From positions 1 to 64,000 of the forward strand of contig JAQUFE010000006.1 of NCBI GenBank assembly GCA_028684815.1: DNA of 64,000 bases, given 5' to 3'. Of this stretch, positions 3,037 to 62,957 are shown piece by piece (the stretch's first letter is position 1; each line of letters begins with the position of its first letter). The notes beneath the pieces are model-generated. The model saw nothing but the letters and a program-made list of their open reading frames with translations, had not been told where the DNA came from and made no database searches. This DNA comes from Sulfurimonas sp. (GTDB lineage: Bacteria > Campylobacterota > Campylobacteria > Campylobacterales > Sulfurimonadaceae). The position numbers were made by a program, and so were the translations under genes.

Positions 3037-3050
3037 TTGATATAAGTCAA
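3037..3050 (-). promoter_or_regulatory. FNR-type box, distal, upstream of nosB
   Basis: TTGAT-ATAA-GTCAA, both half-sites fitting the FNR-type pattern. It lies 95 bp upstream of the proximal box in the nosZ-nosB spacer. It could be a second activator site. Confidence 0.5.
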
Positions 3051-3228: not shown

Positions 3229-5829
3229 TTAGAATAAGTTAGCATTATCATCAACCCATTTTAGGTATTCTATAATGTCTTTTGTCTCTTCTTTGCTCAT
3301 GTTTTGGTTAGGCATTCTTAGTTTGAAATAATCAATCATGCTCTTAACATATGGCTCTTCATACATTTTTTCTGGATGTAGGATAAAATCACTTACCCAT
3401 TTCTCAGCATTTTCATGTCTTTGTAGTACACCAGTTAAGTCTGGACCTGATGATACTTTACCAATAACGTGACATCCGTTACAACCACCTTCAGCGAAAG
3501 CTTTTTCACCTCTAGTAGCAGACGGAGTTTGTTTAGTAGCGATTTCTCTTACTAGTGAATCTTTTGCACGAATCCCAACGTCAGCAGTTTTAACCATTAG
3601 TTGCCAAATCATATTTTCAAAAAGGATAGCTTTTTCATAATCACCTTTTTTGAAAGCCTCGTCAGCTTGTTTTTTCTGAGCAGGGATTTGGTTATATTGA
3701 TCAAATGCATCAGTTACAAGATCAGCTACCACTTTATGTTTGTCAAATTTGTTGTCTTTTAAGAACTTTACAACTGACTGAATAACAGCATCTGTAGCAT
3801 CATTTACTGCAACAGTTTTTTTGTACTCAGCAATGAGTTGATCACTTGACATTGTTTGCATTTTTAGTTTTTGAGCCGAAGTATATTTTTTATTCGGATC
3901 TTTAACCATCAAGTAACCCATCATCTCTAAGTGAAGAGCTGAACAAAATTCTGTACAATAGTATGGGAAAACTCCTTCTAAGTCAGCAGTAAACTTAACA
4001 CTTCCTGTTTTACCAGGCTCTAGTGAAACGTGAACATCATGTTGACTAACTGTAAACGCGTGAGTCTCATCTTGAGCTCTCTCAAGGTTTGTTAAGTACA
4101 TAGTTACTTCATCACCTTTATTAACTGTGATTCTCTCAGGGTTAATATGTGAACGAACAACCGTAGCGTATACAGTAACTTTGTTACCTTTTCTCTCGAT
4201 TCTTTCTTGACCTGCTAAAGTTTTACCTTCATGAATCTCGCCAGTTCTTACGTTTGTTCCCATTGGGTATCTAACGTGTGGGTGAAGCTTTGAAGCACGA
4301 ATAGCAACAGCTTGGTGAGGCTCACCTAATGGAATAGGCATGTCATATAAAAGATCCATTTTCTTACCACTAATGTCAATTAACTGGTGACTTTGTGGGT
4401 GTAATGGTCCAACAGGCTGATATCTATCAATTACTAGTTTGTTTAGTGAAATGATATATTTTCCTTGAGGATCAGCAGATTTACCTTCCATTCCACAAAG
4501 GTGACCAACGTTATAGTGAACGTTTACTTTGTCTAAAACTTTAAGAGTTTTATAGTTCCACTTAACAACTTGTGAATCAACATATAGTGAAGTATAAATC
4601 TCACCATCTACGTTTGAATACTGGTTATGTAATGGCCCAAGACCTAACTCAGCTTGACCGTGTAGAGACTCTTTCATATCTAAGATAGGAATACCATATG
4701 GATCTTTACCAATGTATTTTTTATCTTTGATAAGTTTTTTGATCTTGCTCCATTTATAAACAGAAGCGTGAGTATCTAGTTTACCACAAACAGTAATATA
4801 TTCACCATCAGGAGAGACGTCAACACCGTGTGGTGATTTTGGCTCTGGAATTAAGAACAGTGCATCATGCTTAACTGCAACATCCATAGGAATAACTCTA
4901 TGACCATTTACAACTTTTACGTTTTTCTTATCTTGTGCAACTTTTTGTAGCACTTCCCAGTTATAAACATGTAGGAAGTCAGTGTCATTTCTTGACATAC
5001 CAGCTTCGTTTGGTGGCATACCAATTTCGATTCCACCTGTGTACATCTCCGAGTTAAATGAGTTAGTAAAACCCCAACCATGAGAAACACCTTTACCAGC
5101 GTCACTTAAATCTTGCATATATGGAGGCATCTCTATAGTAAAAGAGTCTTTCTCTATAATACGACCGATTTTAGAATCAAATTTCCACATAGTCACACCA
5201 CCACGGTATGTCTCTTTGTACTCTTCGATTGGAGCGTAGTTGTTATCTAGTGGAGCAGCATATTGAGCAGCCTCTATGATGTACTCTGAATTTTGTGTAA
5301 AGAAAGCTCCACCGTGAGCAGATTTAAAAACAGGGTTTACAACTATTTGTTGAGTCTCAAAGTCAGCTAAAGAGATGATAGCTATACGAGGAGTAGCTTT
5401 ATCGTTGATTGCTAACCACTTACCATCATATTTACCATCTACTTCAGATAGAGCAGGGTGATGAGTATCTCCCCAGTTGATCTCTCTTCCACGGATATTA
5501 CCTTGTCTTAGGACCTTTTTAGATTCTTCGTCAAAGCCATAACCTTGCCAAGGTTCAGGTGTAAATACACCGATGTACTTCAAGATTTTCATTGAAGGAA
5601 CACCATAAACAATAATCTGTCCAGCTTGTCCAGCCGAGCTAAATACTACGAATTCATCTCTACCACCAGATGGTAGGTATGTCTTAGCAGCACGAATTAT
5701 ATCTTGTTCAGTTAAGCCTCTTTTCTTCATTACTTCTTGTAGTTCTCCACCTGTTGCTGCCGATGCGATCGATGCAACTAGTGTCGTACCTAAAAGAACT
5801 GAAGTAAGCTTGTTGAAATGCTTAGTCAT
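3229..5829 (-). CDS. nosZ: Nitrous oxide reductase with C-terminal cytochrome c domain
   Basis: NosZ reduces N2O to N2 in the periplasm with the CuZ and CuA copper centres. I chose the start MTKHFNK (866 aa) rather than the longer ORF because AAGGAGAAGAAAA precedes it. The N-terminus is a Sec-type signal, not Tat, as in clade II enzymes. Residues of about 60-540 form the beta-propeller with His motifs such as DTHHPALSE and SPHGVDVSPDG. A cupredoxin CuA domain ends in YYCTEFCSALHLEMM (about 623-637). A linker then leads to a c-type heme site, CNGCH, near residue 783. The fused heme is the form known from Wolinella and relatives. An FNR-type palindrome lies upstream. Confidence 0.96.
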   Translation of the reverse strand: MTKHFNKLTSVLLGTTLVASIASAATGGELQEVMKKRGLTEQDIIRAAKTYLPSGGRDEFVVFSSAGQAGQIIVYGVPSMKILKYIGVFTPEPWQGYGFDEESKKVLRQGNIRGREINWGDTHHPALSEVDGKYDGKWLAINDKATPRIAIISLADFETQQIVVNPVFKSAHGGAFFTQNSEYIIEAAQYAAPLDNNYAPIEEYKETYRGGVTMWKFDSKIGRIIEKDSFTIEMPPYMQDLSDAGKGVSHGWGFTNSFNSEMYTGGIEIGMPPNEAGMSRNDTDFLHVYNWEVLQKVAQDKKNVKVVNGHRVIPMDVAVKHDALFLIPEPKSPHGVDVSPDGEYITVCGKLDTHASVYKWSKIKKLIKDKKYIGKDPYGIPILDMKESLHGQAELGLGPLHNQYSNVDGEIYTSLYVDSQVVKWNYKTLKVLDKVNVHYNVGHLCGMEGKSADPQGKYIISLNKLVIDRYQPVGPLHPQSHQLIDISGKKMDLLYDMPIPLGEPHQAVAIRASKLHPHVRYPMGTNVRTGEIHEGKTLAGQERIERKGNKVTVYATVVRSHINPERITVNKGDEVTMYLTNLERAQDETHAFTVSQHDVHVSLEPGKTGSVKFTADLEGVFPYYCTEFCSALHLEMMGYLMVKDPNKKYTSAQKLKMQTMSSDQLIAEYKKTVAVNDATDAVIQSVVKFLKDNKFDKHKVVADLVTDAFDQYNQIPAQKKQADEAFKKGDYEKAILFENMIWQLMVKTADVGIRAKDSLVREIATKQTPSATRGEKAFAEGGCNGCHVIGKVSSGPDLTGVLQRHENAEKWVSDFILHPEKMYEEPYVKSMIDYFKLRMPNQNMSKEETKDIIEYLKWVDDNANLF

Positions 5830-5884
5830 TTTTCTTCTCCTTAAAATTCCTTTGAATATACAGAATATACCCAAATGATTTGCA

Positions 5885-5929
5885 ATACTATTATATTTTT
5901 AAGACACATAATTTGACTAAGGTCAAATT
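5885..5929 (-). promoter_or_regulatory. nosZ promoter with perfect FNR-type palindrome
   Basis: AATTTGAC-TAAG-GTCAAATT at 5910-5929 is a perfect 8+4+8 inverted repeat containing TTGAC-N4-GTCAA. On the minus strand it is followed by TATAAT (5895-5890) and an overlapping TAGTAT (5890-5885); the latter is centred 32 bp away, the class II spacing. It lies about 80 bp before the nosZ start. Confidence 0.7.
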
Positions 5930-5952: not shown

Positions 5953-6924
5953 TTATTGTTTAAGAATAGAAGAAGAAATAAGAGAATCTAAGTCTGATTT
6001 TAGATTTTCTAGCTTTTTAGCGGAGGTTGTTAGCTCTTCGAGGGAGTCTATAAGGGCATCTTCTTTTTTAGTTAGCTCTTTATCTATTGGAAGGGATTCT
6101 TGCATGGTGTAGATAAGTTCTAAGAGGTCTTCTATATTACTCTCTACTTGATATAAAGAGCTAAAAGAATGCTCAATCGAGCGACTAGAGTTTTCTATAG
6201 AGATATTTATTTTTTCTACAAGAAAGTTGAAGTTGTTGCTAGCTAGTAGTATCTCTTTATTTTCATCTTTTATTTTTATAGGCTCTAGCTCTTTGATACT
6301 TGAATTGGTAATTATTTTTTTTGAAGTAGATAAAAATTTTTGCATAAAGAGGATTAGACCTTTTAACTGAGTAAAAAGATATAGAAGAAGCATTACAAGA
6401 AGTGTAAAAAGAGTGTACTGGAGAGTTTTAGAATTATGGAGATCTTTTTCATACTCAGCGTTATGCATTTTGATAAGAGCATCAAATTCCATAACAAGTT
6501 TTATATTGGTATGATATATATCATTTACTATTTTTTCTAGCAAAATATTTGTATAGGCTGAAGTTACTTTGGATCTATCTCTAAAATTTTGCACAAGCAA
6601 ATAAAATTTATTCCATAGTATAGAGATTTGTTTGTTTTTTTCAACGATGTTTGTGAAGCTGTTTTGTTCTATTAAAGCTTGTCTGTTTTTTATATTTTCT
6701 ACAAACTCTTTTATAGATTTGTCTAACTCTTTTGTTGAACTATTTCTATTTTTATAGAGAAAGAAAATATTTTTTGCGATATCTTGAGTAAAAGCCTTTT
6801 GAGAGTTTAAGATATCAAGTAAATTATTGTTAGAACTGTTTTGCTTTGATATATGGCTAGAGAGAAGCGCTAAGGTAATGGAGAGTGTAAAAATAAGTAT
6901 GCCAACTATTTTTATCTTAGTCAT
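5953..6924 (-). CDS. Two-helix membrane sensor-like protein without output domain
   Basis: A 323-residue protein with a transmembrane helix at about 5-24, a helical periplasmic region of about 145 residues, a second helix near 170-188, and a coiled-coil-rich cytoplasmic tail. The layout resembles the sensory half of NarX/PilJ-type receptors. No histidine kinase, HAMP consensus, GGDEF or chemotaxis signalling domain is visible. Its start overlaps the end of the upstream Crp/Fnr gene by 8 bp, and nosZ follows downstream. It may sense an N-oxide or redox signal for that regulator, but this is inference. I do not recognise the family with certainty. Confidence 0.6.
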   Translation of the reverse strand: MTKIKIVGILIFTLSITLALLSSHISKQNSSNNNLLDILNSQKAFTQDIAKNIFFLYKNRNSSTKELDKSIKEFVENIKNRQALIEQNSFTNIVEKNKQISILWNKFYLLVQNFRDRSKVTSAYTNILLEKIVNDIYHTNIKLVMEFDALIKMHNAEYEKDLHNSKTLQYTLFTLLVMLLLYLFTQLKGLILFMQKFLSTSKKIITNSSIKELEPIKIKDENKEILLASNNFNFLVEKINISIENSSRSIEHSFSSLYQVESNIEDLLELIYTMQESLPIDKELTKKEDALIDSLEELTTSAKKLENLKSDLDSLISSSILKQ

Positions 6925-7573
6925 TTGCTACTTCCTTTAGTGCATTTATATCTAGCACCTTGATTTGACCATGTATTATATCAATAATATTATTTCTCTT
7001 AAGTCTATTTAAGACACGTGATAGAGTTGCTGGTTGAATGTGAAGTATCAAAGATATATCATGTCTTTTTAGTTTGTTAAACATCTCCAAGTCGCCATAA
7101 AGCATCATAGAAACTTTTTGGACTGAGTCATAAATAAATTCACGGTTTATTAAAGATTGAAGTTTTTTAGATCTTGCATTAACCTCACAAGAGAGCTCTA
7201 GGCAGAGTTTATTTTTATCTAAAAAGTTTGATTTAAAGAGTTCGTAGTCGATGTTTAAGACTAATGATTCCTCTACTATGGAGATATTTGAGAAAAAATC
7301 AAGAGTTGGACTTTTAAAAGTCTCTATCTCTGAGAGTAGTGATCCCTTATATATATAGTAAAGAAAAATCTCATTTTTATGTTTATCTATCTTGTAAGAT
7401 TTTGCTAGACCATTTATAAGAAACTCTAAATTTTGACTATGCTCATTTTCATAATGAAGCAGATACTCATTTGCATAGGAGCTAAGAGAGCAAAAAGAAG
7501 ATAGAAGTTCAATCTCATGAATATCAAGAGAGCTAAAAAATTCTAAGGATTCCAAAATCTCTCTGATAGTCAA
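6917..7573 (-). CDS. Crp/Fnr-family transcription regulator next to nosZ
   Basis: A 218-residue protein with an N-terminal cyclic-nucleotide-binding-like beta-roll (about 10-120), a dimerisation helix, and a C-terminal winged helix-turn-helix. The recognition region reads ISLILHIQPATLSRVLNRLK. There is no N-terminal cysteine cluster of the classical Fnr type, so it is more like Dnr/NssR-type N-oxide regulators than an oxygen sensor; this is inference. It is co-transcribed with the exported protein upstream (10 bp gap) and the membrane sensor downstream (8 bp overlap). It is a good candidate to bind the TTGAC-N4-GTCAA sites near nosZ, nosB and the 47.6-kb cytochrome. Confidence 0.85.
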   Translation of the reverse strand: MTIREILESLEFFSSLDIHEIELLSSFCSLSSYANEYLLHYENEHSQNLEFLINGLAKSYKIDKHKNEIFLYYIYKGSLLSEIETFKSPTLDFFSNISIVEESLVLNIDYELFKSNFLDKNKLCLELSCEVNARSKKLQSLINREFIYDSVQKVSMMLYGDLEMFNKLKRHDISLILHIQPATLSRVLNRLKRNNIIDIIHGQIKVLDINALKEVAND

Positions 7574-56385: not shown

Positions 56386-57081
56386 ATGAGTAAAATTATC
56401 GCGAGTATATTAGTGCTTGGCGCTATATTGTTTGGTGCCCAGGGCGAAGCTCAAAAGAACAAAGAGATGCAGATGTTTCAAACGGTGCCTATGAATAAGG
56501 CTACAATCCTTCAAGATGGTGATACTAAGATGTATTGCCCAACATGTGGAATGACACTTCCTATGTTTTACAAAACAAATCACGCAGCGACTCATAACGA
56601 CCACACAGAGCAATACTGCTCACTTCACTGTTTAGCTGAGACAAATCTCAAAAACAACAACTCTCTAAAAGATATCAAAGTAGTAGATGCTAAGAGTCTA
56701 AAGTTCATAGATGCACAGAGTGCTCACTATGTAGTTGGAAGCTCTAAAAAAGGCACTATGAGTATGACAAGTAAGTATGCATTTGCTAATGCTGATGATG
56801 CTAAAGCATTTCACAAAGAGTTTGGTGGAGAGCTTATGAATTTTGAACAAACTTATGAGTTAGCTTCAAAAGCACTTGAAGCTGAGATGAAAATGGTAGC
56901 TAAAAACCAAGCTGATATGGCTAAAAAAGGCGAGATGATTTACAACAAAATGTGTAAAAAGACAGACAAAAAATTCAGCTCAACAGCTGAGGCTAAAGCT
57001 TATGTTATGTCGAGTAATCTTTGTGGAGAACTAGATGGTAAGAAACTCCAAGCAGTTGGGATTTACTTAGGTAAAAGATAG
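56386..57081 (+). CDS. NosL-family periplasmic protein, single domain
   Basis: A 231-residue protein with a Sec signal peptide (MSKIIASILVLGAILFGAQG) and no lipobox. A NosL-like domain follows, with CPTCGM near 52, EQYCSLHC, VVDAKSLKFIDAQSAHYVVGS, KKGTMSMTSKYAF and FGGELMNFEQ. NosL proteins bind Cu(I) and supply copper to N2O reductase or related enzymes. The C-terminal 80 residues carry GEMIYNKMC and NLCGELDGKKLQAVGIYLG, a cytochrome-like helical layout without CxxCH. It heads the NosL/ABC locus, separated from the next gene by repeat D. Confidence 0.82.
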   Translation: MSKIIASILVLGAILFGAQGEAQKNKEMQMFQTVPMNKATILQDGDTKMYCPTCGMTLPMFYKTNHAATHNDHTEQYCSLHCLAETNLKNNNSLKDIKVVDAKSLKFIDAQSAHYVVGSSKKGTMSMTSKYAFANADDAKAFHKEFGGELMNFEQTYELASKALEAEMKMVAKNQADMAKKGEMIYNKMCKKTDKKFSSTAEAKAYVMSSNLCGELDGKKLQAVGIYLGKR

Positions 57082-57112
57082 ATAAAGATTTACTATATTT
57101 TTAAATCATCAT

Positions 57113-57460
57113 AATTGAATCCTTTGATTGATTTATAAACTAGATTCCGTGTCAAGCACGGAATGACGATGTTGAATCTTTTGATTGATTTATAAACTAG
57201 ATTCCGTGTCAAGCACGGAATGACGATGTTGAATCTTTTGATTGATTTATAAACTAGATTCCGTGTCAAGCACGGAATGACGATGGAGTGGGATATCATC
57301 GTGAAGAAGAAACTGCCATCGTGAAGAATAAATCATCATCGTGAAGAAGAAACTGCCATCGTGAAGAAGAAATCATCATCGTGGAGAAGAAACTGCCGTG
57401 GTGAAATAACATCGTCATCCTGAACTTGATTCAGGATCCAGTTTGATAAACGAATTTTTC
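57113..57460. repeat. Repeat cluster D: three 57-bp units, 20-bp tandem array and inverted hairpin unit
   Basis: Three tandem copies of a 57-bp unit (57115-57171, 57172-57228, 57229-57285) each contain ATTCCGTG-TCAAG-CACGGAAT. They are followed by five 20-bp tandem units (CATCGTGAAGAAGAAACTGC type) from 57297 to 57396. An inverted TCCTGAA-CTTGA-TTCAGGA unit closes the cluster. Because 57 bp is 19 codons, the array gives a false repetitive ORF. It occupies the 448-bp spacer; nothing else is seen there. Confidence 0.85.
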
Positions 57461-57529
57461 AGATTTACTATGCTTTTAAGTTATAATAATTATATTTAGA
57501 TAGAATTATTTTTTGATTTAAGGATTACA

Positions 57530-58609
57530 ATGAAAGCAATAATTATTTTACTAACACTCTTTTTAAGCCTTAGTGCACACAACTTTTCTAAAGTCTCTTC
57601 AAGTGAGCCACACTTAGTGCAAAAAGGTGCAGAAAAGGAGTGGTGTCCTGTTTGTGGGATGAATATAAAGATGTTTTACAAAACTTCCCACGCTGCAGAA
57701 CTTAAAAACAAAACTCCACGACAATACTGCTCTATGAGATGTTTAGTGCAAGATAAAGAGGAGTATGGGATTGATGATTCTAGCATTAGGGTTGTAGATG
57801 CTAAGAGTGAAAAACTCATAGATGCAAGAAGTGCTTTTTATGTCTTAGACTCAGATGTTAAAGGCACTATGAGTAGAGTCTCTAAACTAGCTTTTGCAAA
57901 AAAGAGTGATGCAGAAGAACATGTGAAAAAGTATAAAGGCAAGATTGTTAGTTTTGACGTGGCAATGAAAGCTGCAAAAGAGTCTTTAAAGAGTGATAAT
58001 ACTCTTACTCAAAGCAAAAAAGAGAAAAAAGTCTATGCTATGGGTAAAAAAATATATGAAAAAATGTGTAGTAAAGATATAGATGAGACTAACTACATAG
58101 AGATAAATGAGTTAAAAGCTGATATAAAAAACTCTAAACTTTGTAAGCCAATGGATGAAGATAAACTCCAAGCTTTAGCACTCTATCTATGGGAAGTTAA
58201 ACGCCTTGGAGATTTAAAGAGCATAGAAGGCAAGATAGAAGTTACTGAAGATGAGAAGTGCCCAATCTGTGGAATGTTTGTATATAAGTATCCAAAGTGG
58301 GCAGCTCAGATTTTTTATGCAGATAAACACTACTCTTTTGATGGAGTAAAAGATCTTATGAAGTACTATTTTTTATACAAAGACGGCATCTCTAAGATTT
58401 TAGTTACAGATTACTATTCACAAAAAGCCATAGAAGCAAGAGAGTCCTTTTTTGTTGTTGGAAGTGATGTTTATGGCCCTATGGGAGATGAGTTGATACC
58501 ATTTGCAAAGCTTGAAGATGCAAAGACTTTTAGTCTTGACCATAAAGGTAAAAAGATTTTGAGGTTTGATGAGATAGATGAGATAATCATCAAAAAACTA
58601 GATGAGTAA
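57530..58609 (+). CDS. Double NosL-domain periplasmic protein
   Basis: A 359-residue protein with a signal peptide (MKAIIILLTLFLSLSAH) and two NosL-like units. The first has WCPVCGMNIKMFYK, RQYCSMRCLV and DARSAFYVLDSDVKGTMS. A middle helical region with MCSK and KLCKPMDEDKLQALALYLWE parallels the C-terminus of the single-domain neighbour. The second has KCPICGMFVYKYP, HYSFDGVKDLMKYY and ARESFFVVGSDVYGPMGDEL. Both carry the CPxCGM copper-type motif. This looks like a fused copper chaperone pair. It overlaps the next gene by 8 bp. Confidence 0.82.
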   Translation: MKAIIILLTLFLSLSAHNFSKVSSSEPHLVQKGAEKEWCPVCGMNIKMFYKTSHAAELKNKTPRQYCSMRCLVQDKEEYGIDDSSIRVVDAKSEKLIDARSAFYVLDSDVKGTMSRVSKLAFAKKSDAEEHVKKYKGKIVSFDVAMKAAKESLKSDNTLTQSKKEKKVYAMGKKIYEKMCSKDIDETNYIEINELKADIKNSKLCKPMDEDKLQALALYLWEVKRLGDLKSIEGKIEVTEDEKCPICGMFVYKYPKWAAQIFYADKHYSFDGVKDLMKYYFLYKDGISKILVTDYYSQKAIEARESFFVVGSDVYGPMGDELIPFAKLEDAKTFSLDHKGKKILRFDEIDEIIIKKLDE

Positions 58610-58919
58610 AAATCTTTACACTACAAAGACTCCAAAAGTTTTACTCTCTTTGTTTGCTCTTTTGGTTTTTTTCGCTTTTGAGACTCTCTATATCTTCTCT
58701 ACAAAGAGCTTAGATAGCGAGAGCTTAGAAAAAAGAAAAGAGTTTGTTAGCATCGTAGCTCTGCCAGACTTGGCAATATCTACAGAGGCTACATTTATAA
58801 GGCATAGAAGTATGAGTGACCTCTTTAGCATCTATAAAGATGATGGCTCTCTACGAGAGTATTTTGTCTCAACTTACACATATTCACACTCACATAAGGC
58901 AGATAAAAGTGCGAAATAA
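58602..58919 (+). CDS. Small single-helix membrane protein of the NosL/ABC locus
   Basis: A 105-residue protein with one N-terminal transmembrane helix (about 11-33) and a periplasmic tail. The tail includes FIRHRSMSDLFSIYKDDG and ends with a His/Ser-rich YTYSHSHKADKSAK that might bind metal. No family recognised. It overlaps both the double NosL gene (8 bp) and the permease gene (11 bp), so it is firmly in the operon. Confidence 0.65.
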   Translation: MSKNLYTTKTPKVLLSLFALLVFFAFETLYIFSTKSLDSESLEKRKEFVSIVALPDLAISTEATFIRHRSMSDLFSIYKDDGSLREYFVSTYTYSHSHKADKSAK

Positions 58920-60093
58920 GATAAATTTTTACCTCATAGAATACGCAATAAATGCGATACTTAGACAAAGATATAAAAATATTTTTATAGCAACAACTCT
59001 TACATTTTTAATCTTTTTACTTACAAGTATATTCTTTATAACAAACTCCATAAAATACGAACTAAACGCTACTGTTGACGCTCTTCCTGAGATAGTAGTT
59101 CAAAAGATAAAAGCTGGAAGACACTACGATATAGAGACACATGCCACAGAAGAGATACTTGCCATTACAGGAGTTGTAGATGCAGTTGCTCGTGTTTGGG
59201 GTTACTACTACTTTGAAAATGCTGGGGTGAACTTCTCCATCGTTGGAGTAGATGAGTTTGAAGCGCAGTATAAAGAGTCACTAAAAAGAGTTGTCGAGAC
59301 AAGCAATCTTATGAATACGAAAGAGAGTTCTATGGTAGTTGGAAGCGGAGTTAAAGAGACTATGCAAAACAATTATTATAAGGATTATTTTAACTTTATA
59401 AAGCCTGATGGAACTCTAAAAAGAGTTGATGTTGTTGGTGTTTTTGATGGAGATACTCAGCTTGAATCAAACGATATGATTGTTATGTCAAAAGCTGATG
59501 TTAGAGAGATTTTTGATATGAGAGAATCAAAAGCTACAGATATAGTAGTAAAGGTTTCAAACCCTGATGAAGTAGCGACTATCGCCTCAAAGATAAAGCT
59601 TATCTTTCCAGATAGTAGAATTATCACTAAAAATGACCTCAAAATCTCTTATCAAAATATTTTTGATTATAAGAGTGGCATATTTTTAGCTCTTTTTGTT
59701 GTCTCACTCTTTACATTTTTTATCATCATCTATGATAAGGCAAGTGGACTTAGTAGCGAAGAAAAAAGAGAGATAGGGATACTAAAAGCAATAGGTTGGA
59801 GAGTTGATGATGTTTTAAAAGAGAAGTTTTATGAGGGATTTATCATCTCTTTTTTCTCTTATATGATAGGTGTAATTGCAGCAGCAGGTTTTGTATATAT
59901 TTTTCAAGCTCCACTTTTACAAAATATATTTACAGGATATTCACAGCTAAAGGCATCATTTGAGCTTCCATTTATCTTCGATGTGCAAACCCTCTTTTTA
60001 GTATTTTTCCTAAGTGTTCCTATCTATATAGCAGCGACAATCATTCCATCATGGAAGATTGCTACACTAGATGCAGACGAGGTTATTAGATGA
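58909..60093 (+). CDS. FtsX/MacB-type ABC transporter permease
   Basis: I start this at GTG 58909 (VRNKINFYLIEYAI) with AAGG 10 nt upstream; the longer track ORF would run through the 105-aa gene. The 394-residue protein has TM1 near 24-44, a large extracytoplasmic MacB-PCD-like domain (about 50-245), and three C-terminal helices. The cytoplasmic KREIGILKAIGWRVDDVLKE motif of FtsX-like permeases is present. Such permeases with LolD/MacB-type ATPases move lipoproteins or work mechanically on periplasmic partners. It differs from NosY. Pairs with the ATPase at 60258. Confidence 0.85.
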   Translation: MRNKINFYLIEYAINAILRQRYKNIFIATTLTFLIFLLTSIFFITNSIKYELNATVDALPEIVVQKIKAGRHYDIETHATEEILAITGVVDAVARVWGYYYFENAGVNFSIVGVDEFEAQYKESLKRVVETSNLMNTKESSMVVGSGVKETMQNNYYKDYFNFIKPDGTLKRVDVVGVFDGDTQLESNDMIVMSKADVREIFDMRESKATDIVVKVSNPDEVATIASKIKLIFPDSRIITKNDLKISYQNIFDYKSGIFLALFVVSLFTFFIIIYDKASGLSSEEKREIGILKAIGWRVDDVLKEKFYEGFIISFFSYMIGVIAAAGFVYIFQAPLLQNIFTGYSQLKASFELPFIFDVQTLFLVFFLSVPIYIAATIIPSWKIATLDADEVIR

Positions 60094-60123
60094 TATATAA
60101 GCTAAATATACGAGGGGTGAAAA

Positions 60124-60261
60124 ATGAGTAAATCAAAGAATATAATCACCACAAATGAATATAAAAAGTTTTATGAATTTTACTCTATAAATTTAGTCCA
60201 ACTCTATATTGGACTAAATCAAATTGATGCAATAATATTTAAAAATGAGCAGTTAAAATGA
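60124..60261 (+). CDS. 45-codon ORF between permease and ATPase
   Basis: Too short for the ORF track. The reading frame MSKSKNIITTNEYKKFYEFY... runs 45 codons, starts with ATG after a strong GAGGGG, and its TGA overlaps the ATPase start (ATGA), so it looks translated and coupled. The peptide is hydrophilic with no signal. It contains an 11-bp perfect inverted repeat (60191-60219). It could be a real small protein or a leader that tunes ATPase translation. Confidence 0.5.
   Translation: MSKSKNIITTNEYKKFYEFYSINLVQLYIGLNQIDAIIFKNEQLK
60191..60219 (+). promoter_or_regulatory. Perfect hairpin inside the 45-codon ORF
   Basis: ATTTAGTCCAA-CTCTATA-TTGGACTAAAT, an 11-bp perfect stem with a 7-nt loop, 39 bp before the ATPase start. 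It has no T-run, so it is not an ordinary terminator. It may control ATPase expression or mRNA stability. Confidence 0.45.
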
Positions 60262-60926
60262 TAGAACTTAAAAATGTAACAAAAAGCTATGAGATAAACA
60301 AAAACAACCTAGTTGTGGCACTAAATGATGTGAGTATGAAGATAGAAGAGGGCGAGCTTGTAGTGATTAAAGGTGCTAGTGGGAGTGGAAAGAGTAGTGT
60401 TTTATCACTTATCGCAGCTCTTAGTAAACCTACAACTGGAGAGATTATAGTAGATGCTAAGCAGATATCAAAGCTTCCAGACCGCTTTGCATCTGAATAT
60501 AGACGGGACAATATTGGGTTTGTATTTCAAAAGTACAATCTTATAACTACACTTAGTGTAAAAGAGAACATCTTACTTCCTTTAGTCCCACTAAATCCAG
60601 ATGCACAAGATGCAGATGCAAAACTCAATAGAGCTATGGAGATGTTTAAGATATCTCATAAAAAAGATGCCATCATTAAAAACCTCTCAGGTGGAGAGCA
60701 ACAACGTGTTGCTATTGCAAGAGCAAATGTCAATAACCCTAAAATCATCATAGCAGATGAGCCAACTGCAAACTTAGATGAGAAGCTCTCTCTTCACTTT
60801 ATAGAGATGCTTCGCGAGCTAAAAAAACTAAACAAAACTATAGTTATAGCTACTCATGACCCACTGTTTTTTGGTTTGGATATTGTAGATATAGAGATTG
60901 AGATGCATAATGGAGTTGTCATTTGA
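60258..60926 (+). CDS. LolD/MacB-type ABC transporter ATPase
   Basis: A 222-residue ATPase with all motifs: Walker A GASGSGKSSVLSLIA (about 38), Q-loop FVFQKYNLI, signature NLSGGEQQRVAIARA, Walker B KIIIADEPTANLD, and H-loop VIATHDP. The sequence groups with the LolD/MacB/FtsE class that pairs with FtsX-type permeases, rather than clearly with NosF. It is coupled by ATGA to the 45-codon ORF upstream and overlaps the membrane protein downstream by 4 bp. Confidence 0.92.
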   Translation: MIELKNVTKSYEINKNNLVVALNDVSMKIEEGELVVIKGASGSGKSSVLSLIAALSKPTTGEIIVDAKQISKLPDRFASEYRRDNIGFVFQKYNLITTLSVKENILLPLVPLNPDAQDADAKLNRAMEMFKISHKKDAIIKNLSGGEQQRVAIARANVNNPKIIIADEPTANLDEKLSLHFIEMLRELKKLNKTIVIATHDPLFFGLDIVDIEIEMHNGVVI

Positions 60927-61882
60927 TACTAACTCCTGAAGTTTTAGCTATCTTTATACTAAACACTATCTTTGGACTTTTTGGCATCATAGCTTTTTAT
61001 CTGAGTGTGAAAATCTACTTAAACTGGGATTTAAGTTCTACAAGCAAAACCCAGTACCGCCTTGAAAAACAGAGCTACTTAGCAGCTACCATCATAAAGT
61101 TTATCTTTATCATAAAGGTTCCTCTATTTCTCTTTTTTGTCTTTACTCTTGATAAGATTTCAAACGTTTTAACAGGGGCAATGTGTGGGGCTGGAGTTGT
61201 AGATGCAACAGATACAGGGACTTTTCTTTTTGTTTTAAAAATTATAAATCTATATATCTTTGCTTACTGGATAGCTCTTCATAATGAAGATGCTTCTCGT
61301 GAAGATCAGCCCTTCGTAAAACAGAAGTTTGCCTTTTTTATAGTCGCCTTTTTTCTCTTTATGGCTGAACTTATCATCGAAGGAGTTATGTTTGGCTCCA
61401 TTGAGATAGATAAGATGGTAAGTTGCTGTGGCACGCTCTATTCAAGCACTTCAACTTCGGCAATATCTAGTATATTTGCACTTGATACTTCGCTTCTTTT
61501 ATATATATTTTATGGGATATTTTTTCTTATTGTTTTGTTTTATTTTTTGAAAAATAGATACCTTTTTGCTATAAGTAATGCTCTATTTGTACCTATATCT
61601 CTAATCACGCTTATAGTCTTTTTTGGAACTTACATTTATGAGCTTCCATCACATCACTGCCCATTTTGTTTTTTACAAAGTGACTACTATTTTGTAGGTT
61701 ATTTTATCTATGCATTTTTGTTTTTAGGAACATTTTATGGGCTTGTTGTTGGTTTTGTTGAATCCAAAGAGGAGGACAAACTAAAAAGCTATAGAATGTC
61801 TCTGATATTTAACTCTCTTTATGTTATATTGCTTACATCATTTGTCGTGATATATTTTATAAAAAATGGAGTTTGGCTTTGA
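60923..61882 (+). CDS. Polytopic membrane protein with Cys motifs, nosL neighbour
   Basis: A 319-residue protein with about eight transmembrane helices. Conserved-looking cysteine/histidine motifs lie near membrane borders: GAMCGAGVVDATDTG, KMVSCCGTLYSS, and SHHCPFCFLQSDYYFVGY. A CCG and an HHCPFC (CxxC) pair suggest metal binding or thiol redox chemistry. I cannot name the family. Placement between the ABC ATPase and nosL suggests a role in copper handling or in delivering copper to periplasmic enzymes; this is inference. Confidence 0.7.
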   Translation: MILTPEVLAIFILNTIFGLFGIIAFYLSVKIYLNWDLSSTSKTQYRLEKQSYLAATIIKFIFIIKVPLFLFFVFTLDKISNVLTGAMCGAGVVDATDTGTFLFVLKIINLYIFAYWIALHNEDASREDQPFVKQKFAFFIVAFFLFMAELIIEGVMFGSIEIDKMVSCCGTLYSSTSTSAISSIFALDTSLLLYIFYGIFFLIVLFYFLKNRYLFAISNALFVPISLITLIVFFGTYIYELPSHHCPFCFLQSDYYFVGYFIYAFLFLGTFYGLVVGFVESKEEDKLKSYRMSLIFNSLYVILLTSFVVIYFIKNGVWL

Positions 61883-62328
61883 TGATGAAATATCTAAAGG
61901 TTGCACTACTGTTCGCTATAAGTCTCTCTTTTATAGCTTGTGAGCAAGAGACACAAAAGGGTGTCTCTACTGTTCATTGGGACAGAGATATGTGTAGTAG
62001 ATGTGTTATGGTGGTTAGTGATAGAAAAAACACTGTACAGATGAGGAATCCAGATACTCAAAAAACATATATGTTTGATGATATAGGGTGTTTGGCTCTT
62101 TGGTTTGAAGAAGAAAAACCGAGCTGGGAAGATAGAGCAATCGTCTGGATAACAGATGTTGATAGTGGTGAGTTTATAGATGCAAAAGTAGCATTTTATG
62201 ACACAAACAATGTCACACCTATGGCTTATGGATTTTCAGCGCACAAGACTAAAGAAGCGATAAAAGAGGGCGAAGAGATAGTCTCTTATGACGAAGTTAT
62301 AAAAAGAGTAAAGAAGATAGGGCAATGA
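61882..62328 (+). CDS. nosL: NosL copper-binding lipoprotein
   Basis: Starting at the ATG overlapping the upstream stop (TGATG), with GGAG 10 nt before, the protein is 148 residues. It has a lipoprotein signal (LLFAISLSFIACEQ, lipobox IAC), the NosL motif MCSRCVMVV near 44, and TYMFDDIGCLALWFEE. FIDAKVAFYDTNNVTPMAYGFSAH follows. NosL is a Cu(I) chaperone for NosZ metallation. It is closer to classic NosL than the two proteins at 56386 and 57530. The next gene, a Crp/Fnr regulator, overlaps by 4 bp. Confidence 0.88.
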   Translation: MMKYLKVALLFAISLSFIACEQETQKGVSTVHWDRDMCSRCVMVVSDRKNTVQMRNPDTQKTYMFDDIGCLALWFEEEKPSWEDRAIVWITDVDSGEFIDAKVAFYDTNNVTPMAYGFSAHKTKEAIKEGEEIVSYDEVIKRVKKIGQ

Positions 62329-62957
62329 AGCAAACACTACAAAATATAGATATGTTTAAAGAGCTTGATGAAGAGACACTATCTAAGATTGAAAAACTAA
62401 CAACTCATCACACTATAGCTAAAGACAATATTGTTTTTTATGAGGGAGATGATTCTAAATATCTCTATCTTTTAGCTAAGGGCATTATAAAACTATATAA
62501 GACTTCATCGAGTCATAAAGAGATAGTTTTAAAGTACTTTCATGAAAATGAACTCATAGGTGAAGTTGCTAACTTTGAGAAGATGCCATATCCTGCAACT
62601 GCTAAAGCTTATAGTGATGTAGAGGTTTTAAAGATAGACTTTAAAGGTTTAAAAGAGATTATCTACTCAAACCCAGAACTCTCCTATATCATCCAAACAT
62701 CTCTGATAAAAAAGATTAAAAATCTTGAAGTTATTATCTCTACAAACTTAGTGCTTGACTCAAAAGAGAGGGTTGCAAAGTATATGTATAACCATTCTGA
62801 CAGTTTTTTTGCTACTAAAAACATCCTAATTGCAGAGATACTAAGTGTCTCGCCTGAGACGCTCTCAAGGATATTAAAATCATTTAAAGACAATGGTATC
62901 ATTGATATGAAAGCTAAAAAGATGGATAGAGAAGCACTTTTAGAATACTTTGAATAA
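62325..62957 (+). CDS. Crp/Fnr-family transcription regulator of the NosL locus
   Basis: A 210-residue protein with a cyclic-nucleotide-binding-like domain (about 10-120; FYEGDDSKYLYLLAKGIIKLYK, ELIGEVANFEKMPYPATAKA) and a C-terminal winged helix-turn-helix (ILIAEILSVSPETLSRILKSFK). No Fe-S cysteine cluster is visible, so it is Dnr/NssR-like rather than classical Fnr. It is coupled to nosL by ATGA overlap. It is the second candidate reader of the TTGAY-N4-RTCAA boxes in this window. Confidence 0.87.
   Translation: MKQTLQNIDMFKELDEETLSKIEKLTTHHTIAKDNIVFYEGDDSKYLYLLAKGIIKLYKTSSSHKEIVLKYFHENELIGEVANFEKMPYPATAKAYSDVEVLKIDFKGLKEIIYSNPELSYIIQTSLIKKIKNLEVIISTNLVLDSKERVAKYMYNHSDSFFATKNILIAEILSVSPETLSRILKSFKDNGIIDMKAKKMDREALLEYFE

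Follow-up and report, generated by a model that had tools for sequence, protein, structure and literature searches.

The window analysed here, 64,000 nucleotides of Sulfurimonas sp. DNA, is the first 64 kb of a 72.8-kb contig (C76). At 56386-62957 it contains a candidate copper-delivery cassette, whose gene calls are all real and without exception on the plus strand, in the order N1, N2N2, SMP, PERM, ATP, CYSMP, N3 and CRP (Table 1). A preliminary description, made from the sequence alone, had listed three NosL-family proteins, one of them double-domain, together with an FtsX-type permease, a LolD/MacB-type ATPase, a Cys-motif membrane protein and a Crp/Fnr regulator. All of these are present, with N1 and N2N2 recognised as NosL proteins by Pfam and N3 by profile comparison (hhalign). 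The arrangement on one strand with many overlaps holds from N2N2 onward, where most neighbouring genes overlap (N2N2/SMP by 8 bases, SMP/PERM by 11, ATP/CYSMP by 4, CYSMP/N3 by 10 and N3/CRP by 4), the exception being a gap of about 165 bases between PERM and ATP. N1, in contrast, is separated from N2N2 by 448 bases that include a triplicated repeat, and is therefore outside the tight operon.

The start of PERM was set at about 58909 (GTG) by alignment with its relatives, instead of 58816. The 45-residue frame in front of ATP has no counterpart in any other locus compared and is confined to this genome. SMP had been described as a small His-tailed membrane protein; its single helix stands, but a His-rich tail is found only in the window (SHSH) and in the nearest relative (THSH), and the length of the protein varies between 61 and 110 residues among relatives.

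Table 1. Coordinates of the cassette features and of nosZ in the window (aa, amino acids; TM, transmembrane; ABC, ATP-binding cassette)
Feature	Position	Strand	Evidence
N1, NosL-type protein 1, 231 aa, Sec signal, CPTCGM plus YCSLHC	56386..57081	+	Pfam NosL 7.6e-18
Repeat of ~57 bases with inverted repeat (attccgtgtcaagcacggaat), three tandem copies, intergenic N1/N2N2	57115..57285	.	sequence
N2N2, double-domain NosL, 359 aa	57530..58609	+	Pfam NosL, two stretches, 3.5e-54
SMP, small protein, 105 aa, one predicted helix	58602..58919	+	
PERM, FtsX/LolC/MacB-type permease, 394 aa, one large extracytoplasmic domain, four TM helices	58909..60093	+	Pfam FtsX 2.7e-12
45-aa open frame, doubtful gene, between PERM and ATP	60124..60261	+	good ribosome-binding site
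ATP, LolD/FtsE-like ABC ATPase	60258..60926	+	ABC motifs
CYSMP, 8-TM membrane protein, core marker of the cassette, family not known	60923..61882	+	alignment, AlphaFold2 model
N3, NosL-type lipoprotein, lipobox Cys then CSRCVM (CxxCxM)	61873..62328	+	Pfam E=0.01; hhalign to NosL
CRP, Crp/Fnr-family regulator	62325..62957	+	Pfam cNMP-binding plus HTH_Crp
nosZ, clade II, with nosB, nosD and nosG to its left	3229..5874	-	

Transporter, cysteine protein and NosL-type proteins

The AlphaFold2 model of PERM (predicted local distance difference test, pLDDT, 82.2) matches LolE (3.0e-15), LolC and MacB (8.3e-13) in a Foldseek search of the PDB, and a profile match to LolC is found at 2.9e-7. PERM and ATP together display the features of a type VII (LolC/MacB/FtsX) ABC transporter, i.e., a large periplasmic domain, four TM helices, an FtsX domain and a LolD/MacB-type ATPase, in which Walker A, Q-loop, LSGGEQQR, Walker B and H-loop are intact. 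The cassette shares permease fold and ATPase type with LolCDE, MacB and FtsEX. LolE and LolC being the closest solved folds of PERM, ATP being LolD-like and N3 carrying a lipobox, the cassette could be a LolCDE-like sorter dedicated to extracting N3 from the inner membrane and passing it on to the outer membrane. This lipoprotein-handling alternative, raised in the preliminary description, is the weaker one and is improbable. PERM reaches about 52-53 bits, far below the LolC/E equivalog cut-off of 362.45, and a separate, far better LolC/E candidate elsewhere in the genome scores 243 bits. LolC/E systems are defined by two different permeases with equivalog membership, whereas the cassette has a single permease gene, an additional Cys protein and NosL proteins; the N3 gene is also missing from many Sulfurimonas cassettes. 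To our knowledge, Lol systems have no Cys-rich partner with eight TM helices.

This partner, CYSMP, shows 27 invariant columns among 24 diverse sequences, including C88, C168, C169, H244, C246 and C249. Its AlphaFold2 model (pLDDT 85.6, predicted template modelling score 0.82) contains eight TM helices, and the five invariant Cys and the His are all located in even loops. Lys plus Arg amount to 0.04 per residue in the even loops and to 0.20 in the odd loops, so that, by the positive-inside rule, the invariant Cys and His would face the periplasm. No Foldseek match to the model exists in the PDB below E=1 (best E=1.0), no PDB profile match was found, and nothing reaches the cut-off in Pfam or NCBIfam. 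CYSMP appears to represent an undescribed family, the other cassette parts being of known kinds (type VII ABC transporter, NosL, Crp/Fnr). An assignment to the DsbB/VKOR thiol oxidoreductases, which are four-helix bundles with a CxxC and a second Cys pair, was rejected on the basis of the eight TM helices and of the missing fold, profile and Pfam matches.

The HxCPxC motif of CYSMP nevertheless resembles the DsbB/VKOR motif by eye, and the haem exporter HrtBA is among the structural matches of PERM (1.5e-9). Together with the haem c carried by both NosZ and MccA of Campylobacterota, and with a DsbD_2-type cytochrome c biogenesis gene adjoining some cassettes, this could point to a periplasmic redox or haem maturation system for c-type cytochrome domains, with CYSMP as a thiol relay and an HrtBA-like transporter. 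Such a role is unlikely, because CYSMP matches neither DsbB/VKOR nor any other fold or profile, the mcc operon already contains its own haem lyase CcsA1, and the CxxCxM motifs of the NosL proteins indicate Cu(I).

CxxCGM-type motifs are present in N1 and in N2N2, where domain 1 contains CPVCGM plus YCSMRC and domain 2 contains CPICGM; the latter domain matches the copper lipoprotein NosL (PDB 7osf) at 8.9e-8. The family profile of N3, a protein that Pfam NosL hardly detects, aligns to the NosL profile with 97.9% probability (E=3.5e-13), and CxxCxM is found in 48 of 51 N3-type relatives. N1, N2N2 and N3 each combine a NosL domain, the motif and either secretion or a lipid anchor (signal peptides and lipobox judged by eye). 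Clade II NosL proteins carry CXXCXM, with the CXM part as the likely Cu(I) site (PMC6530538). In Campylobacterota nos operons, the classical nosL position is the last one, and the motif is absent from 37 of 37 proteins encoded there (the gene L074:2923-3393 on the minus strand of contig C54 and 36 related loci). A lipoprotein encoded between nosF and nosY carries CXXCXM, though it is missed by Pfam. The annotated nosL may not encode a copper chaperone in these bacteria, and copper competence probably resides in the NosL-like lipoproteins and in the NosL proteins of the cassette. The CxxCxM motifs of the cassette, seen alongside classical-position genes that lack them, count in favour of copper delivery, and Cu(I) binding and CuZ-site supply by the cassette NosL proteins are predicted.

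Genomic settings and linkage to nosZ and mccA

N2O reduction depends on the copper of NosZ, and the known route by which this copper is supplied is NosDFY-NosL. The genome analysed here also encodes that route: contig C54 carries nosC1-C2-H-F-(NosL-like)-Y-L, and by gene order its end looks contiguous with the left end of the window, which is where the preliminary description had suggested looking for nosF and nosY. Its view that the locus is not a classical nosDFYL set is confirmed. The NosDFY-NosL system shares with the cassette an ABC transporter, a NosL chaperone and a periplasmic client, but NosY, an ABC-2 permease, lacks a large periplasmic domain and the β-helix protein NosD is separate, whereas PERM is of the FtsX type and has such a domain, as had been anticipated. 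Both systems coexist here. A second nosZ (G000:C20:52909-54702, L072) has its own nosB, and other nos genes are not nearby.

The distribution of the cassette was surveyed in 250 Campylobacteria genomes, counting as mcc only close MccA proteins (>1000 bits). The cassette permease occurs in 87 genomes, nosZ in 76 and close MccA in 41. The presence of the core (PERM, ATP, CYSMP) in 87 genomes indicates that the locus is more than a chance arrangement. The cassette comprises five to eight neighbouring genes and is met in four settings among sulfur- and nitrogen-respiring Campylobacterota; as the comparison across GTDB covered the best 80 of 388 genome loci, relatives beyond this phylum may exist. 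Inside nos operons, the insertion point differs: the cassette either separates nosF from nosY or follows nosL or a PAS gene (L076, L077, L078, L080, L082), as in nosZ-B-D-G-C1-C2-H-F-NosL-like-SMP-PERM-ATP-CYSMP-NosL-like-nosY-nosL, with variants in several families. In Sulfurimonas it adjoins the nos operon convergently, in the order PrmC-DUF4149-N2N2-SMP-PERM-ATP-CYSMP-N3-(Crp) followed by the reversed nos operon (L120, L124, L129, L146 and others, with one gene missing in some); of the best 80 GTDB loci, 24 have nosL in their flanks of up to 9 kb. In mcc operons the order is MccA-B-C-D-CcsA1-TPR-N2N2-small-PERM-ATP-CYSMP-N3-like (L086+L092, L091+L094, L095, L096, L097, L107). The cassette of the window represents the fourth, stand-alone setting. 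Plasmid-borne copies were not found. The idea that the N3-Crp end tracks nosZ in Sulfurimonas was discarded, as N3 and Crp are missing from the cassettes of the nosZ-bearing genomes G009, G015, G027, G037 and G129.

The haem-copper sulfite reductase MccA was identified through the protein of locus L095, which aligns with PDB 4rkm from end to end (1453 bits); MccA-type sulfite reductase is counted among the cuproenzymes (PMC7558416). All 41 genomes with close MccA contain the cassette; in 40 of them it follows mccA on the same strand at a distance of 6.9-10 kb, and in the 41st mccA is at a contig end. When the mcc copies are left out, 61 cassette copies in 58 genomes remain, 32 of these genomes having nosZ, and the presence of such copies is associated with nosZ (Fisher P=7e-6). 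Of the 35 non-mcc copies in nosZ genomes, 12 are located within 20 kb of that gene, often inside the nos operon (12 of 32 genomes, five families), as compared with random placement at p=0.02 (binomial P=2e-12). In a tree of PERM plus CYSMP, the mcc copies group almost as a single lineage, to which the nos-inserted copy of L082 is sister. The nos label, by contrast, requires at least 17 changes when well-supported branches are counted. Linkage to nos has thus been gained or lost repeatedly and is not a single inherited accident. The cassette of G056 (C1:862000-863000; L090, L093) is preceded by mccC-D-ccsA1 and, at the expected mccA site, by an insertion sequence-like transposase pair; here the mcc operon is disrupted, yet the cassette has been retained.

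Several observations weigh against a role in copper delivery. The linkage counts take in many near-identical genomes, and many of the mcc cases come from one genus. NosZ is not encoded in 28 of the 87 cassette genomes, and 17 genomes have nosZ and no cassette, among them one genus (f3/g15, probably Campylobacter) whose nos operon is complete; the cassette is therefore not required for NosZ, and the co-occurrence with nosZ suggested as a check is seen for the non-mcc copies without being strict. The service to NosZ or other copper enzymes envisaged in the preliminary description agrees with the gene neighbourhood of nos and mcc, but it is not NosZ-specific and its tightest link is to MccA. Wide occurrence in genomes lacking copper enzymes had been named as a ground for abandoning the proposal: 20 of the 87 have neither nosZ nor close MccA, and 19 of these 20 encode a cbb3 oxidase, yet so do 238 of all 250 genomes, which makes this oxidase uninformative as a discriminating client. 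Of 35 genomes that encode a second octahaem protein, MccA-like but more distant, 31 are without the cassette. Finally, the NosL-type domains could bind a metal other than copper. The second MccA-like group (G192, G114, G137 and 32 others, mainly Campylobacteraceae) is 47-53% identical and scores about 600-660 bits; it may represent another enzyme, possibly one that contains no copper.

Regulation and previously described clusters

CRP contains no cysteine and is thus not an Fe-S-containing FNR. Its identity to the window's other Crp/Fnr protein (6917-7573), which is encoded near nosZ, is 28%. The Nss regulators of Wolinella respond to nitrate, NO and N2O (PMC6682613). FNR-type boxes are absent upstream of the cassette, and the three matches across the window are below chance expectation. 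Two of the three, the FNR/Nss-like boxes TTGAC-N4-GTCAA (5913-5926) and TTGAT-N4-GTCAA (3037-3050), stand directly upstream of nosZ and nosB, respectively; their placement is suggestive, though the window count is within chance.

The MacB-type fold and the metal-binding chaperones of the cassette would also suit a system for copper efflux or detoxification by which the periplasm is protected. The probability of this is low, considering the linkage to respiratory enzymes and the Crp/Fnr regulator; moreover, neither a MacA/TolC partner nor a copper-sensing regulator was recognised among the cassettes read.

Parts of the cassette have been recorded before. A genome of 2,110,355 bases (G167), which would fit W. 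succinogenes DSM 1740, has nosZ in two pieces and the order mccA..D-ccsA1-..-N2N2-small-PERM-ATP-CYSMP-NosL-like. On this identification, the mcc cluster of Wolinella probably includes the cassette, whose genes were reportedly named there by Kern in 2011. A further genome of 3,175,729 bases (G235), presumably S. multivorans, encodes at L214 a 390-residue double NosL a few genes from a CRP gene. For S. multivorans, the NosL protein SMUL_3232 was reported to be 31-fold up in pyruvate-adapted cells, and a CRP-like regulator, SMUL_3226, is mentioned (PMC6242987). Judged by the double NosL and the nearby CRP of G235, SMUL_3232 is probably the N2N2 orthologue. In the nos clusters of Sulfurospirillum cavolei, a five-gene insertion was described in 2016 as a hypothetical, an ABC permease, an ABC ATPase and two hypotheticals, with no function given (PMC4794192). 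Its gene order, among nos genes, is the same as SMP-PERM-ATP-CYSMP-NosL-like, and no connection to mcc or to stand-alone copies is drawn in that paper. In the literature searched, which took in few subscription papers, no report links nos and mcc through a shared cassette, and neither the nos connection of the mcc-cluster cassette nor the Cys protein family is described.

A putative copper-delivery module

The occurrence of the cassette inside nos and mcc operons of many relatives suggests that it probably supplies copper to NosZ and sulfite reductase. It is best explained, and with better than even confidence, as a NosDFY-independent, ATP-driven module that delivers copper to respiratory copper enzymes of the periplasm. 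The locus in the window would then be the stand-alone Sulfurimonas form of a Campylobacterota cassette that shifts between genomic settings. Two copies of PERM and the LolD-like ATP would form the type VII transporter, in which ATP hydrolysis in the cytoplasm would drive movements of the large periplasmic domain of PERM. This domain could work together with the periplasmic and lipid-anchored NosL-type Cu(I) chaperones, while CYSMP, with five Cys and one His on the periplasmic side, may hold or reduce the metal or the chaperone thiols. Cu(I) would finally be loaded into periplasmic copper respiratory enzymes, with NosZ and MccA as the best-supported clients and others possible, and CRP would couple expression of the cassette to the supply of electron acceptors.

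Tentatively, the cassette may even constitute a new class of copper-delivery machine, in which a type VII mechanotransmission ABC transporter and an undescribed eight-helix protein with five Cys load NosL chaperones without NosDFY, and which was recruited repeatedly to different enzymes. If this is true, unrelated copper enzymes of Campylobacterota, such as NosZ and MccA, would share a common copper-supply module. A gene set listed so far as hypothetical would gain a function, and a new membrane protein family would be named that is directly testable.

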